Source of the DNA: an uncultured Prevotella sp.
Lineage (GTDB): Bacteria > Bacteroidota > Bacteroidia > Bacteroidales > Bacteroidaceae
Reading direction: 5' to 3'
Length of the DNA: 64,000 bases
Assembly: GCA_946627325.1 (NCBI GenBank)
Contig: CAMOVK010000004.1
Coordinates: 1-64,000, forward strand
Shown: positions 1,135 to 39,579 of the stretch, piece by piece
Layout: each line of letters starts with the position of its first letter
Position numbering within the stretch: position 1 is the stretch's first letter
The notes under the pieces: generated by a model
Told to the model about the DNA's origin: nothing
The model's input: the letters and a program-made list of their open reading frames with translations, nothing else
The model's database searches: none
Position numbers and translations under genes: made by a program

Positions 1135-2406
1135 TTAGAGGAATGGTGCGAGCAGGTGTGCGAACCATCCTCTGAATCGTTGCCATGGTGTGCGAAACTT
1201 CCGCCATCGTTCCTGTGTAAGTAGGAATGATTTTTTCTTATCGCGTTGGAATAGTTGTATTAGTTGGTCGGTTGTGCAGCGGTCTATTATCACTGCGTTT
1301 TCTTCGAGGTCGAACCGCAGGCTTCGTGAGTTGAGATTTGCACTTCCTATGGTACAGAATCGCCCATCGACCATAATGATTTTAGTGTGATGAAATCCTG
1401 GTTCATATATCCAGACATCTACCCCATGTCTCATTAGTCGATGCACGTTGTATAGAACGCAGTCTGGAGTTAGTGGTATGTCGCTTTTTGCCGAGACCAT
1501 TACCTCTACCTTCACACCCCTTTCGCTTGCTCGTCGTATGGCTTTTTTTAGTTTTCGGTTGAGTGTCAGGTATGGATTTATTAGTTTGATGCTGTCTTTT
1601 GCAGCATTGATTGCTTCGAGGTAGAAATCCCTTATGATAGAGTTCGATGTTCTTGGTTCTCTATTGATTATGCCTACTGTCTTTGCATAAGCCGTTGAGC
1701 AGGTGTCTCTCTTAAGATTTTCTGATGGTTGTTTTGCTATTCTGCCTTGATAATATTTTTCTCCTTGTACTTCTTGATTAGTCAGTTTGTTCCACGTTCG
1801 GATAAATATCTTCTGCAGTGTGTTTACCTCTGTGCCTTCTATTCGGCAGTGCATATCGCGCCATTCGCCTACTTGCTGTGTTCCTTTGATATAATAGTCA
1901 GCTACGTTCATTCCGCCAGTGTATGCTATCTCTCCATCGATAACTACTATTTTTCTGTGGTCGCGACATAACACATGGTTAATCCATGGGAATCTAACTG
2001 GGTCGTATTCGTATATTTCAATACCTTTTTGGCGTATTTCCGTCAGGTGTCGTTTTTTTAGAGGTCGGTTGTTAGAGTCGTTGCCAAATCCGTCGAAGAT
2101 TGCCCTGACCTCCACTCCTTCTTCAACTTTCTTTCCTAACAGGTCGAAAAGCAATGATGCTATAGAGTCGTTTCGGAAATTGAAGTATTCGAGGTGGATG
2201 CTGCTTTTTGCCTGACGGATAGCTTCAAACATATCATCGAACTTTTCCTGTCCGCTCATAAGCAGTGTCACTGAATTGTCGTGACTGAAAGTCACGCCTT
2301 TTTCCCTCATCTTCTCAACTATAATAGAGTCGGAAGTGAGTGTGTCGGTTTGTGCCCAAAGTAGTAAGGGCATAATGGCGAGGACAATCAGGAGAAGTTT
2401 TTTCAT
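1135..2406 (-). CDS. cls: Phospholipase D-family protein / cardiolipin synthase-like, with signal peptide
   Basis: Two HKD motifs (HRKIVVIDG; HTKIIMVDGRFCTIGSANLNSRS); N-terminal signal peptide MKKLLLIVLAIMPLLLWAQ. Confidence 0.85.
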   Translation of the reverse strand: MKKLLLIVLAIMPLLLWAQTDTLTSDSIIVEKMREKGVTFSHDNSVTLLMSGQEKFDDMFEAIRQAKSSIHLEYFNFRNDSIASLLFDLLGKKVEEGVEVRAIFDGFGNDSNNRPLKKRHLTEIRQKGIEIYEYDPVRFPWINHVLCRDHRKIVVIDGEIAYTGGMNVADYYIKGTQQVGEWRDMHCRIEGTEVNTLQKIFIRTWNKLTNQEVQGEKYYQGRIAKQPSENLKRDTCSTAYAKTVGIINREPRTSNSIIRDFYLEAINAAKDSIKLINPYLTLNRKLKKAIRRASERGVKVEVMVSAKSDIPLTPDCVLYNVHRLMRHGVDVWIYEPGFHHTKIIMVDGRFCTIGSANLNSRSLRFDLEENAVIIDRCTTDQLIQLFQRDKKKSFLLTQERWRKFRTPWQRFRGWFAHLLAPFL

Positions 2407-3380
2407 CAGACAACGCAGCTATAACTATCTACAATACCGAGCAGATGATGTTCTTCATCAGTGACGAGGACCGAGTGTATTTTGTGTTTGTGCATTAATT
2501 TCTGCACTTCAGCGATTTTCATCGTTGTTGGAATACATTTCGGTGTTGTTGTCATCACGTCGCTTACTGTTTTGTCGAAGAATTGTGCCTGCCATCGTTC
2601 CATTGCTCGTCGTATGTCGCCGTCGGTTATAAGTCCTGCCACTCGTCCATCGCTCATAGCCACTCCCATTCCGAGTTTTCCTTTCGATACGTGTATTATT
2701 GCTTCTCCAAGGTGCATTTCTGGCGATATTATCGGCAGGTCATCTGTGTGCATCACGTCGGCAGCTGTTGTCAACAGTCTGCGTCCGAGCGATCCTCCTG
2801 GGTGGAATTGTGCAAAATCGCGCTGTTCGAAGCCGCGCACTTCCATAAGTGCTATTGCCAGTGCGTCGCCCATTGCGAGTGCTGCGGTGGTGCTACTTGT
2901 AGGTGCAAGATTAAGCGGACAAGCCTCTTTCTTAACATATACGAGTATGTGGGCATCGGAGTACTTAGCTAACAGGGAGTCGGCATTGCCCGTCATGGAT
3001 ATAATTGGTATGTTGGAGTGTTGCAACATAGGTATAAATCGTAGCAATTCGTCGGTCTGCCCTGAATTGCTCATGGCTAACACCACATCGTTAGGAGTCA
3101 TTACGCCGAGGTCTCCATGAAACACATCGAGTGGATTGATGAAGAACGATGGTGTACCTGTGCTCGAAAGTGTGGCTGCAATCTTTGCTCCTATGTGTCC
3201 GCTTTTGCCCACTCCTGTGACGATTATCTTTCCTTTGCAGTTGAACATTAGTTCTACTGCTTTGTCGAATCCTTCGTCGAGTTGTGGTATGAGTTCGAGC
3301 AAGGCATCGGCTTCTTCTCGTATGCATCGTTCGGCATATAGTCTCACGTTGCCGAGTCGTCTCGTATCGGTATGGCTCAT
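2406..3380 (-). CDS. kdsD: D-arabinose-5-phosphate isomerase (SIS + CBS domains)
   Basis: GVGKSGHIGAKIAATLSSTGTPSFF, SNSGQTDE, CBS pair; next to kdsA. Confidence 0.9.
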   Translation of the reverse strand: MSHTDTRRLGNVRLYAERCIREEADALLELIPQLDEGFDKAVELMFNCKGKIIVTGVGKSGHIGAKIAATLSSTGTPSFFINPLDVFHGDLGVMTPNDVVLAMSNSGQTDELLRFIPMLQHSNIPIISMTGNADSLLAKYSDAHILVYVKKEACPLNLAPTSSTTAALAMGDALAIALMEVRGFEQRDFAQFHPGGSLGRRLLTTAADVMHTDDLPIISPEMHLGEAIIHVSKGKLGMGVAMSDGRVAGLITDGDIRRAMERWQAQFFDKTVSDVMTTTPKCIPTTMKIAEVQKLMHKHKIHSVLVTDEEHHLLGIVDSYSCVV

Positions 3381-3387
3381 GATGAGT

Positions 3388-4149
3388 TTAGTCTTTTAGT
3401 ATGTTTTCTATTACGGATTGTAGTTTGTCGAGTTGCAGCATATTTGCGGCATCGCTCAATCCCATGTCTGGGTTTGGATGCACTTCGAAGAAATATCCTG
3501 TTGCTCCGAATGCTTTTGCTGCCATTGCCATTGATGGCACAAATCGTCGGTCGCCTCCGGTTTTTCCATTTGCTGCTGATGGTCGTTGGACGCTGTGGGT
3601 GCAGTCCATTATCACTGTTGGTACGATTTCGAGCATATCGGGTATATTGCGGAAATCGACAATCAGATTGTTGTATCCGAAGCTGTTGCCACGTTCTGTT
3701 AGCCACACTTCGCTTGCTCCGCTTTCGAGTGCTTTCTCTACGGGATAGCGCATATCTTGTCCGCTGAGGAATTGCGCTTTCTTAATGTTTACTATCTTTC
3801 CTGTTTTTGACGCGGCTATCAGCAGGTCGGTCTGCCGGCATAAGAATGCCGGTATCTGAACCACATCTACTACCTCTCCTGCTGGCTGTGCCTGCCAAGC
3901 CTCGTGTATGTCGGTAAGTAATCGGAGTCGGTACTTTTGCTTTATTGCAGCGAGCATTTCGAGTCCTTTTTCTATGCCTGGTCCGCGAAAAGAGTGCAGG
4001 GATGTTCGATTGGCTTTATCGAAGGAGGCTTTGAAGATTATATCTATCCCGAGCGATTGATTGATTGCCACGAGTTGTTCTGCCACTGTTTCGAGTAGCT
4101 CTTTCGACTCTATCACGCATGGACCTGCTATGAATACGGGGTTCGTCAT
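3388..4149 (-). CDS. kdsA: 3-deoxy-8-phosphooctulonate synthase
   Basis: FIAGPCVIES, FKASFDKANRTS, QIPAFLCRQTDLL, FFEVHPNPD. Confidence 0.93.
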   Translation of the reverse strand: MTNPVFIAGPCVIESKELLETVAEQLVAINQSLGIDIIFKASFDKANRTSLHSFRGPGIEKGLEMLAAIKQKYRLRLLTDIHEAWQAQPAGEVVDVVQIPAFLCRQTDLLIAASKTGKIVNIKKAQFLSGQDMRYPVEKALESGASEVWLTERGNSFGYNNLIVDFRNIPDMLEIVPTVIMDCTHSVQRPSAANGKTGGDRRFVPSMAMAAKAFGATGYFFEVHPNPDMGLSDAANMLQLDKLQSVIENILKD

Positions 4150-35915: not shown

Positions 35916-38030
35916 ATGAAAAAGACACTTATTACATTCGCTCTAATACTCGCCACTGCGACTGTTTGGGCTATTCCTGCAAAACGCGGAATATGGAAAT
36001 CTATCACATTGGCTGACGGAACGACAGTCAAGGTGGAACTTCGTGGCGACGAACATGCAAATTGGTTACAGGCAGCAGACGGTAAAATCTACATACCGAC
36101 AGCTACTGACGACATCTATCAAGAAGTAAACAAAGAAACCATAATGACTCGGGCAAAAGCCAGAAAGGTTCAATCGGAAACGATAAGACGCTCACGTTTG
36201 AACGCTATGAAACGAGTTGGCGGCTTCTTTGGAATGAAAAAAGCATTGGTGATACTCGTAGAATTTGCCGACAAATCATTCCGCGAATCCAACGACTTGG
36301 CACGCTATAAACGCATAATCAACGAAGTTGGCTTTAAGGACGGCTCGTTCTACGGAAGCGTTCGCGACTATTTCCTCGCACAAAGCAGTGGACAATTCGA
36401 CCTTAACTTCGACGTAGTAGGTCCTTATAGCTTAAACAACAACTACTCATATTACGGAGGAAACAGCACCAATGGTGACAGACGACCTGGAGCAATGATT
36501 GCCGAAGCCCTGATATCAGCCGATGAAGATGTTGATTTCTCACTCTATGATTGGGATGGCGACGGAGAAGTGGAACAGGTTTACATCGTATATGCAGGTC
36601 AGGGAGAGGCTGACGGAGGTAGTGCAAACACTGTGTGGCCTCACGCATGGGCTCTCAGCGCAAGCGATTATGGGCAAACACTTACGCTTGACAACGTAAC
36701 ACTCGACACTTATGCTTGCGGAAACGAAATCAATGGTTACAACCAAACAACAGGAATAGGCACAATGTGTCACGAATTCTCACACTGTATGGGCTTCCCC
36801 GATTTCTACGATACCAGTGATTATGGCAATAATTTCGGTATGGGAGACTGGGACTTGATGTGCTCGGGTAGTTATAATGGCAACGGATATCAACCAGCGG
36901 GTTACACAAGCTATGAACGAATGGTGTGCGGATGGATTGAACCAAAGGTGTTAGAAAACGACACTATCGTTAGCGATATGCAACCATTGAGTGAAGGCGG
37001 AGAGGCATTTATTATTTACAATAAGGCTTATCCCGACGAATACGTCATGCTCGAAAATCGTGCAAAGACAAATTGGGACAGCAGTCTACCAGGCGAAGGA
37101 ATGCTTGCATTATATGTAGATTATGACGAATTGATATGGGAATACAATTATCCTAACGCTTACGTTGCATATCAAGGATTGCCTTCAAACACCTACGAAC
37201 GCATGACAATCTTCCCTGCTAACAACTACAAGAGCAATTATTATCAGTCAGGCAACCCTTATCCATATAACAACAACGACTCGCTGACAAACACTTCGCG
37301 TCCTGCACTCAAGCTCAACCATGCCAACACTGATGGAAAGAAACTGCTAAACGTAGGCATTCTTAATATCAGACTAAGCAGCGACAACGTTGTTTCATTC
37401 AATTTCAGAGGAGCAAAAGAAACTATTGTAATCGATGATGAGCGCCCTGAAAATGCTATTTTCTACGAATCGTTTGACCAATGTGCAGGAACAGGTGGCA
37501 ACGACGATGTTTGGAGTGGTGCTACAACAGCTTCAGCTTCCTTCTTGCCCGATATGACTGGATGGAGTTATGTTAACGCCGCAGGGGCTAACAAGTGCGC
37601 CAAGTTTGGCTCAGGCTCAAAGAGCGGCGAGGTGACAACACCACAATTCACCGTTGAAGGCGAAGCCGACTTCTCGTTCCGCGCTGCTCCTTGGGGTGCA
37701 GACGACACAGCACTGACACTTAGCATCAGTGGCGATGCAACGATTGAACCATCCGAATTGACGATGACATCGCAGCAATGGACAGAATTCAAAACCAAGA
37801 TTGTGGGCAATGGACCTGTTACCATAACCTTTACTCCTGCAAAACGATTCTTCCTCGACCATGTAGCAGCAGTGAGTCCAGAGAATGTAGGAATAAACGA
37901 AACAATCTACGGAAAGACAGACTATATGCCTGCAGCTATCTACAGCATAGACGGACGATATCTGGGCACCAACTTCGATGCACTCGGACGAGGCATATAC
38001 ATCGTCAATGGCAAAAAGATTGTGAAGTAA
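35916..38030 (+). CDS. Secreted M6-family metalloprotease with T9SS-type C-terminal sorting segment
   Basis: Signal peptide; zinc site GTMCHEFSHCMGFPDFYD; C-terminus AIYSIDGRYLGTNFDALGRGIYIVNGKKIVK. Confidence 0.88.
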   Translation: MKKTLITFALILATATVWAIPAKRGIWKSITLADGTTVKVELRGDEHANWLQAADGKIYIPTATDDIYQEVNKETIMTRAKARKVQSETIRRSRLNAMKRVGGFFGMKKALVILVEFADKSFRESNDLARYKRIINEVGFKDGSFYGSVRDYFLAQSSGQFDLNFDVVGPYSLNNNYSYYGGNSTNGDRRPGAMIAEALISADEDVDFSLYDWDGDGEVEQVYIVYAGQGEADGGSANTVWPHAWALSASDYGQTLTLDNVTLDTYACGNEINGYNQTTGIGTMCHEFSHCMGFPDFYDTSDYGNNFGMGDWDLMCSGSYNGNGYQPAGYTSYERMVCGWIEPKVLENDTIVSDMQPLSEGGEAFIIYNKAYPDEYVMLENRAKTNWDSSLPGEGMLALYVDYDELIWEYNYPNAYVAYQGLPSNTYERMTIFPANNYKSNYYQSGNPYPYNNNDSLTNTSRPALKLNHANTDGKKLLNVGILNIRLSSDNVVSFNFRGAKETIVIDDERPENAIFYESFDQCAGTGGNDDVWSGATTASASFLPDMTGWSYVNAAGANKCAKFGSGSKSGEVTTPQFTVEGEADFSFRAAPWGADDTALTLSISGDATIEPSELTMTSQQWTEFKTKIVGNGPVTITFTPAKRFFLDHVAAVSPENVGINETIYGKTDYMPAAIYSIDGRYLGTNFDALGRGIYIVNGKKIVK

Positions 38031-38092
38031 CACGTTTGAAGACCACAGCATATCTTCAACAAAAGACAAGAACTAAACAAACTATAAGACTA

Positions 38093-38359
38093 TTGAAACG
38101 ATATAGATGCCGACTACCATTAGCCCTAACATCAGCACTTATGACGATGTTAGGGCTTGGTGGTTGCAACACAAAGAAGGCAGCTATCGAACCTGAACAA
38201 CGCCAAAAAGCCGAGCAATCCATGAGAGATAGTATCGAAAAGGATACCGACATGGAACGCATCGGTCGGAGTGTGCTACTCTATGGAGTACCAAACATGA
38301 AATTCCGCGAAATGGTAACAGATAGCCTGCCTGAACAATCTTCCACCACCGATGAGTGA
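38093..38359 (+). CDS. Small lipoprotein paired with radical SAM enzyme (rSAM/lipoprotein system type), likely TTG start
   Basis: In frame from TTG 38093: LKRYRCRLPLALTSALMTMLGLGGCNTKK..VLLYGVPNMKFREMVTDSL; lipobox LGLGGC; 8-bp overlap with rSAM ORF; ORF track starts the frame inside the upstream gene at 37778. Confidence 0.6.
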   Translation: MKRYRCRLPLALTSALMTMLGLGGCNTKKAAIEPEQRQKAEQSMRDSIEKDTDMERIGRSVLLYGVPNMKFREMVTDSLPEQSSTTDE

Positions 38360-39461
38360 AAGGATAGATATTCGCAAGCGGTTGGGTCTGGAATTGCAAC
38401 GCAGCATACACAAGCGACTGATAGAAGAGCATCCGCTTTATCAGTTGTTTTGGGAGTGTACGCTGCGTTGCAATTTGCATTGTCAACACTGCGGCAGCGA
38501 TTGCAAAACATCGGCATCAACGCCCGACATGCCCTTAGACGATTTCCTTCGTGTTCTCGACAGCATCAGCCGACAATACGACCCACACAAGGTGTTTGTC
38601 ATTATCACAGGAGGAGAACCTCTGATGCGACAGGATTTAGAGTTATGCGGAAGAAAAATCTACGACAAAGGATTTCCTTGGGGAATGGTCACCAATGGTT
38701 TTGCACTGACAGGGGAACGCCTACGTGGACTTGTTGAAGCAGGGCTGCACACAGTGAGCATCAGTCTCGACGGAATGGAAGAGGCACATAATTGGATGAG
38801 AGGCTCGCAAGAAAGCTTTCAAAGAGTGTCTGAAGCTATCGATCTGATGGTCAAAGAGAAATCAATCTTGTTTGACGTTGTCACTTGTGTAACTGAGAAA
38901 AACATTGACCAGCTCGACAATCTTCGTGATTTCCTTGTCCACAAAGGAGTACGTCGCTGGCGATTACTAACTGTTTTTCCCGTAGGAAGAGGTGCTACGA
39001 ATCGTCATCTACAACTCTCTCATGCACAATTCCGCCAGCTTATGGAGTTTATAAAAAAGTCTAACATAGCACAAACACACACACCATCAGGGCAAGCGAC
39101 TGGAAAGGATATACAAATCGAATATGGTTGCGAAGGTTTTTTAGGCAACTACGAGTTCGATGTCCGCAACGATGCGTTCTTCTGCAAAGCGGGCATTACC
39201 GTTGGCAGCGTCCTTGCAGATGGCTCTATTGCCGCCTGCGCATCGATTAGAAGCGATTATAATCAAGGCAATATCTACTGTGATGATTTCCTCGAGGTTT
39301 GGGAAAATCGCTATTCTGTCTATCGCGAGCGGAAATGGATGAAGCAAGGAGAATGTGGGGAGTGTAAGGTTTGGCGATATTGCCATGGTGGTGCATTGCA
39401 CCTTCGCGATGATAAAGGCAATATGTTGGCTTGCAACTATTTGAGAATTAATAAAAACTAA
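38352..39461 (+). CDS. Radical SAM/SPASM protein of an rSAM/lipoprotein pair
   Basis: CTLRCNLHCQHCGSDC (CxxxCxxC), GGEPLMRQDL, SPASM cysteines CKAGITVGSVLADGSIAACASI..CGECKVWRYCHGG..C. Confidence 0.88.
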   Translation: MSERIDIRKRLGLELQRSIHKRLIEEHPLYQLFWECTLRCNLHCQHCGSDCKTSASTPDMPLDDFLRVLDSISRQYDPHKVFVIITGGEPLMRQDLELCGRKIYDKGFPWGMVTNGFALTGERLRGLVEAGLHTVSISLDGMEEAHNWMRGSQESFQRVSEAIDLMVKEKSILFDVVTCVTEKNIDQLDNLRDFLVHKGVRRWRLLTVFPVGRGATNRHLQLSHAQFRQLMEFIKKSNIAQTHTPSGQATGKDIQIEYGCEGFLGNYEFDVRNDAFFCKAGITVGSVLADGSIAACASIRSDYNQGNIYCDDFLEVWENRYSVYRERKWMKQGECGECKVWRYCHGGALHLRDDKGNMLACNYLRINKN

Positions 39462-39484: not shown

Positions 39485-39521
39485 AATTCGAGCCGAAAGC
39501 AGTATCGCTTCGGCTCGAATT
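39485..39521. terminator. Bidirectional terminator-like hairpin between convergent genes
   Basis: AATTCGAGCCGAA / TTCGGCTCGAATT 13-bp perfect stem followed by TTTG. Confidence 0.7.
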
Positions 39522-39579
39522 TTGTTTGGTATTTTTCTTGTTAAAAAAGCTGTGAAAATACTTATTTGTTGTTCACTTG

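Follow-up and report, generated by a model that had tools for sequence, protein, structure and literature searches.

A short Tyr-Gly-x-Pro lipoprotein encoded in overlap with a TIGR04133 radical SAM/SPASM enzyme in Prevotella, a candidate substrate for splicease-type modification

The window, a 64,000-nucleotide stretch of a contig from an uncultured Prevotella sp., contains on its forward strand a small gene (38093..38359) that probably begins with TTG, ends with the stop codon at 38357-38359 and encodes an 88-aa lipoprotein, which its sequence and aligned relatives mark as a probable pro-substrate. Its lipobox (LGLGGC) places the lipid-bearing cysteine at residue 25 (codon at 38165..38167, + strand), leaving a mature part of about 64 residues from that cysteine onward, and this includes a YGVP motif (Tyr64-Gly65-Val66-Pro67; 38282..38293, + strand) that Leu63 completes to X-Y-G-x-P. 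The stop codon region is overlapped by 8 nt by the ATG start of a 369-aa radical SAM/SPASM enzyme gene (38352..39461, + strand), behind which lies a terminator-like hairpin with a T-run (39485..39527, + strand; z = -6.0), so that by sequence the two genes appear to close a single transcript. Upstream stands an M6 metalloprotease gene (35916..38030, + strand). The first-pass annotation had placed a short frame with a lipobox and a YGVP segment upstream of, and overlapping, a radical SAM gene; the coordinates were right and the frame is present, with 88 residues in place of the roughly 89 it gave. It had also noted that the ORF track merges this frame with an unrelated one, and in the track it is indeed joined to a frame whose ATG, at 37778, lies within the M6 protease gene.

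A TTG start at 38093 had been called probable, and the three nearest relatives of the enzyme (loci L003/L060, L004 and L005, about 63% identity) bear on this directly: each has an alignable short lipoprotein at the equivalent position, its Met-Lys start falls on the TTG-AAA of the window, and all share with the window lipoprotein the lipobox and a ..GR(S/A)..LYG(V/G)PN block. Weighing on the other side are the rarity of such a start (among 188 partner lipoproteins 187 begin with ATG and one, at L193, with TTG) and an alternative in-frame TTG 19 codons further upstream (38036..38038, + strand). Starting there, the signal peptide would run to about 44 residues up to the cysteine; since the corresponding length is 21-26 residues in the three nearest relatives, the upstream TTG is less likely, and the alignment leaves 38093 a plausible start. 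The signal peptide falls just under the hydrophobicity threshold of our strict lipobox test, no Pfam domain was found in the lipoprotein, and no convincing second copy was found in the window genome, where there was a weak match to a long frame (E=0.006). Taken with the overlap into the adjoining gene and the joining of the frame to one in the M6 gene by the ORF track, the TTG start could be read as the mark of a spurious ORF; the homologous short lipoproteins at L003/L060, L004 and L005, alike in start position, lipobox and motif block, make that reading extremely improbable.

The enzyme scored 537.6 bits against TIGR04133 over residues 7-366, above the cut-off of 425 bits, in keeping with the family to which it had been provisionally referred. 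Members of TIGR04133 are described as encoded beside a putative lipoprotein, which here is the overlapping 38093 gene. The CxxxCxxC motif of the radical SAM cluster (C40, C44 and C47; 38469..38492, + strand) is followed by G48 and S49, and the SPASM region (39183..39434, + strand) contains C278, C296, C335, C338, C344 and C361, the SPASM cysteines being invariant in the family alignment. Both PF04055 and PF13186 match the enzyme.

The lipoprotein had likewise been likened to TIGR04134, and this did not hold: the window lipoprotein gave no TIGR04134 match at E<=1, and none was found across the window genome. What it has in common with TIGR04134 members is the lipobox and YGxP, features that the TIGR04134 model itself does not state. 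That model matched 28 of 58 diverse partner lipoproteins encoded beside TIGR04133 enzymes and missed 30, the window one included, and thus covers about half of this sample; CarboxypepD_reg matched 10 of the 58.

Lipobox ORFs within 1.8 kb were picked, blind to the motif, at 202 distinct loci of relatives of the radical SAM enzyme. YG.P occurred in 179 of these 253 ORFs, where shuffling of the mature sequences predicts 4.3, and permuted or substituted motifs occurred 0-15 times; as many of the 202 loci are related, the occurrences are not independent events. Together with the aligned lipoproteins of the three nearest relatives, these counts show that the window frame is no chance occurrence. 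Across the 58 diverse partners in our alignment, only the Tyr and Gly of the motif are invariant, only M1, the lipobox Cys and the Pro otherwise reach at least 90%, and mean column identity is 14%. All 58 rows were chosen as motif carriers, which explains the conservation of the motif itself there, not the absence of other conserved positions. The scaffolds that carry YG.P differ widely, from a beta-sandwich or a coiled coil to a minimal or very short tail, with 1-75 residues between Cys and Tyr and 2-234 residues behind the motif. Such variation in spacing, tail and column identity indicates that selection acts on the motif and not on a domain.

So small a common sequence could serve for docking alone, in which case YGxP would be a recognition tag, the lipoprotein an adaptor or carrier, and the chemical change would fall elsewhere in it or on another molecule; that TIGR04133 scores on heme-modifying radical SAM models as well as on TIGR04103 would suit this. 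We consider it unlikely, because the 58 partners conserve only M1 and the lipobox Cys besides the motif, which leaves no second target in the lipoprotein, and because the motif is found in up to 3 copies per partner protein, and up to four lipoproteins stand in tandem at some loci, which look like multiple substrate sites. Two-copy YGxP lipoproteins and four-lipoprotein tandem YGxP arrays beside one enzyme were seen at L054, L048, L122, L105, L062 and L064.

Both flanks were available for 174 loci: 137 have an ORF with a strict lipobox and YGxP/YGPxP, about 14 more, the window included, have another YGxP/YGPxP ORF, and about 23 loci, a good number of which are divergent, lack such an ORF in both flanks. 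The loci that have no nearby YGxP lipoprotein would suit a reading in which enzyme and lipoprotein are mere operon neighbors, with, for example, a joint envelope or redox function and no enzyme-substrate relation. In 251 genomes of the family, however, TIGR04134 was above cut-off in 29, and 27 of these also have TIGR04133. One of the two exceptions (G102) has a run of N directly behind the lipoprotein, where the enzyme would lie. The other (G177, a single genome, 94% complete) gave no TIGR04133 match even at 1e-5, and its TIGR04134 homologue (L280/L285) reads PEHGTPSIRYQVTGSVTDEAGNPLKGI, with HGTP for YGTP, so that Gly and Pro are kept and Tyr has become His. With the exceptions amounting to an assembly gap and a lost Tyr, and with the motif kept across unrelated scaffolds, simple neighborhood is very unlikely. 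Elsewhere, a distal TIGR04134 homologue in G261 (L284), away from any TIGR04133 gene, has lost the motif, and two enzyme-unlinked TIGR04134-type copies in enzyme-bearing genomes (L271 and L274) retain YGCP. The HGTP of G177, the loss in G261 and the retained YGCP copies are few cases, and their sequences fit a Tyr that would be the reacting residue. The earlier suggestion that YGVP is the modified or recognised site is thus strongly supported by the 179 of 253 ORFs, the invariance across the 58 partners and these natural cases in TIGR04134.

Some pairs are built or placed differently. The YGxP partners at L067, L109 and L111 have a transmembrane N-terminus or one without a lipobox, and at L102/L273 (G174, 1405-3048) enzyme and YGTP lipoprotein lie in a single 548-codon open frame, either a fusion or read-through. 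A TIGR04133 enzyme with a CYGMP lipoprotein is encoded outside Bacteroidota, on plasmid pTS1 of Treponema saccharophilum (L230, 2613-4089), where it adjoins an invertase-family recombinase gene; horizontal transfer is likely for this pair.

The kinship of the enzyme narrows the chemistry to be considered. Outside TIGR04133, its best models were TIGR04053, heme-type radical SAM enzymes and TIGR04103; the heme-type models score at least as high as TIGR04103, which is the best-scoring of the peptide-maturase models. The TIGR04103 score is 113.6 bits, below the cut-off of 725 bits, and the window enzyme belongs to a sister family of TIGR04103, not to TIGR04103 itself. Conversely, for three sister-group enzymes TIGR04133 comes third or fourth among the models. 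In a 38-row tree built with IQ-TREE under a mixture model, which has few outgroup families and leaves out PqqE for its long branch, TIGR04133 and the TIGR04103/TIGR03913 group are sisters with support 98/96, and NirJ, AhbD-like and TIGR04053/4347 enzymes stand apart from the two; an earlier tree that included long branches gave 83/69 for the same relation. Among the residues that TIGR04133 shares with the TIGR04103/3913 group, and that the outgroups used lack or seldom have, are CxxxCxxCGS (G48-S49), W203, G262, E268 and S298.

Peptides with YG also lie beside 6 of 10 sister-clade enzymes, with none found nearby for the other 4. At a TIGR04103 locus on a Nostoc plasmid the Nif11 precursor ends ALYGLPPELF, the peptide beside an Azospirillum sister-clade enzyme has RPYGPAM, and DUF1843 peptides beside sister-clade enzymes have PYG or LYG. 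We take IPR026482 to be TIGR04103, which would assign the splicease PlpX to that family. PlpX belongs to IPR026482 (PMC11002830), and PlpXY excises tyramine from X-Tyr-Gly, the leader not being needed and a tag of roughly ten residues sufficing, with splice tags that include PIRPLYGLPI and PIRPGYGLPI (PMC10533398). One LYGLP tag was not accepted by PlpXY at two FtsZ sites and several tags failed at particular FtsZ sites (PMC10533398), so YGxP alone is insufficient for PlpXY and context matters. The window lipoprotein has an X-Tyr-Gly site of its own in Leu63-Tyr64-Gly65. From the sister relation in the tree and the YG peptides beside the sister clade, TIGR04133 enzymes would act at the X-Tyr-Gly site that PlpXY uses, most likely by the same excision.

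Two more of these YG neighbors adjoin TIGR04103-like enzymes. An unannotated small ORF ending GPVMYGTGVRM immediately precedes a TIGR04103-like radical SAM gene on an Agathobacter rectalis plasmid (L231, 2701-2913), and in a genome of the window's own family a KYGYPC/KYGYPG repeat protein (L222, ORF 2949-3596) follows a TIGR04103-like enzyme.

We propose that the overlapping radical SAM/SPASM enzyme has the small lipoprotein as its dedicated substrate, and would act in the cytoplasm on the pro-lipoprotein before Sec export and lipidation. Instead of a RiPP leader it would read the short X-Tyr-Gly-x-Pro site Leu63-Tyr64-Gly65-Val66-Pro67. Excision of tyramine in the manner of a splicease (about -135 Da) would remove most of Tyr64 from the backbone, and the product would be a membrane-anchored lipoprotein showing one reactive ketoamide, an alpha-keto-beta-amino residue. 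The gene pair, the enzyme family, the conservation of the motif across scaffolds, the sister relation and the YG peptides beside sister-clade enzymes are computed here. From them we hold with considerable confidence that window enzyme and lipoprotein stand as enzyme and substrate, and consider it probable that Tyr-Gly is the site of reaction; for excision of tyramine as the reaction the balance is about even, and the explanation as a whole, from dedicated substrate through YG site to most likely tyramine excision, has about an even chance of being right.

YG with a nearby Pro is a short motif, and other radical SAM chemistries also use Tyr. The main rival to excision is another radical reaction at Tyr-Gly-x-Pro, in which Tyr64 would be cross-linked to Pro67 or to an aromatic residue at +7 (Phe71 in the window lipoprotein), or would be oxidized or decorated. 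SuiB, SkfB and PqqE were some of the nearest solved structures in a fold search with the window enzyme model (pLDDT 91.5), all of them remote relatives, and no splicease structure was among the matches listed; these best structural neighbors, which form cross-links or thioethers, favor such a reaction, as does the Y or F that 59% of motifs have at +7. The YGGPN coiled-coil class, however, is without the +7 aromatic, and the nearest enzymes in the tree are those of the TIGR04103/3913 group, whereas structural neighbors are limited to solved structures. E, M, V, L or C predominate before the motif Tyr, and position +2 is occupied by T, V, G, S or P; Gly there, in 13% of motifs, lacks the beta carbon that a 3-residue cyclophane would need, and a triceptide-type cyclophane is disfavored by so frequent a Gly. 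Overall we regard another reaction at the Tyr as rather improbable.

The M6 metalloprotease gene is an upstream partner in the window's own subclade only. It lies directly upstream of the lipoprotein at L003 (2510-4651), at L004 (2486-4621) and, as a tandem, at L005 (842-2551 and 2571-4685), and no M6 gene was found upstream at the other loci examined. The protease as a general partner of the system was therefore rejected. Four M6 domains are present in the window genome in all, and the tail of the window protease, judged by eye, resembles a T9SS sorting signal (GIYIVNGKKIVK). PMC10373908, in summarizing Scott et al. 2022, attributes protease inhibition to alpha-keto-beta-amino residues. By analogy it is conceivable, as a speculation for this subclade, that the anchored lipoprotein inhibits or controls the co-encoded M6 protease.

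TIGR04133 is entered in NCBIfam as a hypothetical equivalog, and both the family and its pairing with a lipoprotein were already catalogued. Our literature search found no paper on TIGR04133/TIGR04134 or on YGxP with radical SAM enzymes, though the subject may already be treated in Scott et al. 2022; a survey of Bacteroidales RiPPs has no mention of lipoproteins (PMC10352776). The first-pass annotation had called the chemistry of the system unknown, which agrees with the outcome of that search; from the tree and the motif, tyramine excision of the splicease type now emerges as a specific candidate. New here are the window lipoprotein as a scaffold outside TIGR04134, the reduction of the element common to the partners to YGxP, and the placement of the TIGR04133 family beside spliceases. 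A bolder reading, less likely than not, is a lipoprotein splicease system in Bacteroidota, in which TIGR04133 enzymes would excise tyramine at YGxP and the envelope would display backbone-edited, electrophilic alpha-keto-beta-amino residues, perhaps with inhibition or control of M6 in the window subclade. The lipoprotein gene is tiny and easily missed, and besides the lipid anchor only Tyr-Gly-x-Pro is widely common to the partners. Splicease kinship and a tetrapeptide substrate make the proposal directly testable, with one predicted residue and one predicted mass change. If it is true, backbone splicing extends to the exported lipoproteins of Bacteroidales that live in host-associated communities, and the many short YGxP lipoproteins that lack annotation can be recognised.

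Set against known systems, the window pair resembles TIGR04133/TIGR04134 pairs in having an enzyme above the family cut-off and an adjoining lipoprotein with lipobox and YGxP, and differs in that its lipoprotein lies outside TIGR04134, has no beta-sandwich domain and probably starts with TTG. With the GDL-motif/DUF1843 systems (TIGR03913) and the TIGR04103-like enzymes of Bacteroidota and Clostridia it shares the larger clade and YG peptides (PYGxA, MYGTG and KYGYPC repeats), but those are soluble peptides or repeat proteins, not lipoproteins. The spliceases PlpX/PlpY act on a precursor with a Nif11/NHLP leader peptide, whereas the window precursor is an exported lipoprotein; and PlpX works with PlpY, whereas no PlpY- or RRE-like partner was seen at the window locus, where no small ORF lies between the radical SAM gene and the terminator. 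Yet the splicease and window enzymes belong to sister clades of radical SAM/SPASM enzymes and share an X-Tyr-Gly site, YGxP itself also occurs on the splicease side, where one natural precursor of TIGR04103 and a published tag for splicing carry it, and leaderless recognition is possible for spliceases as well.
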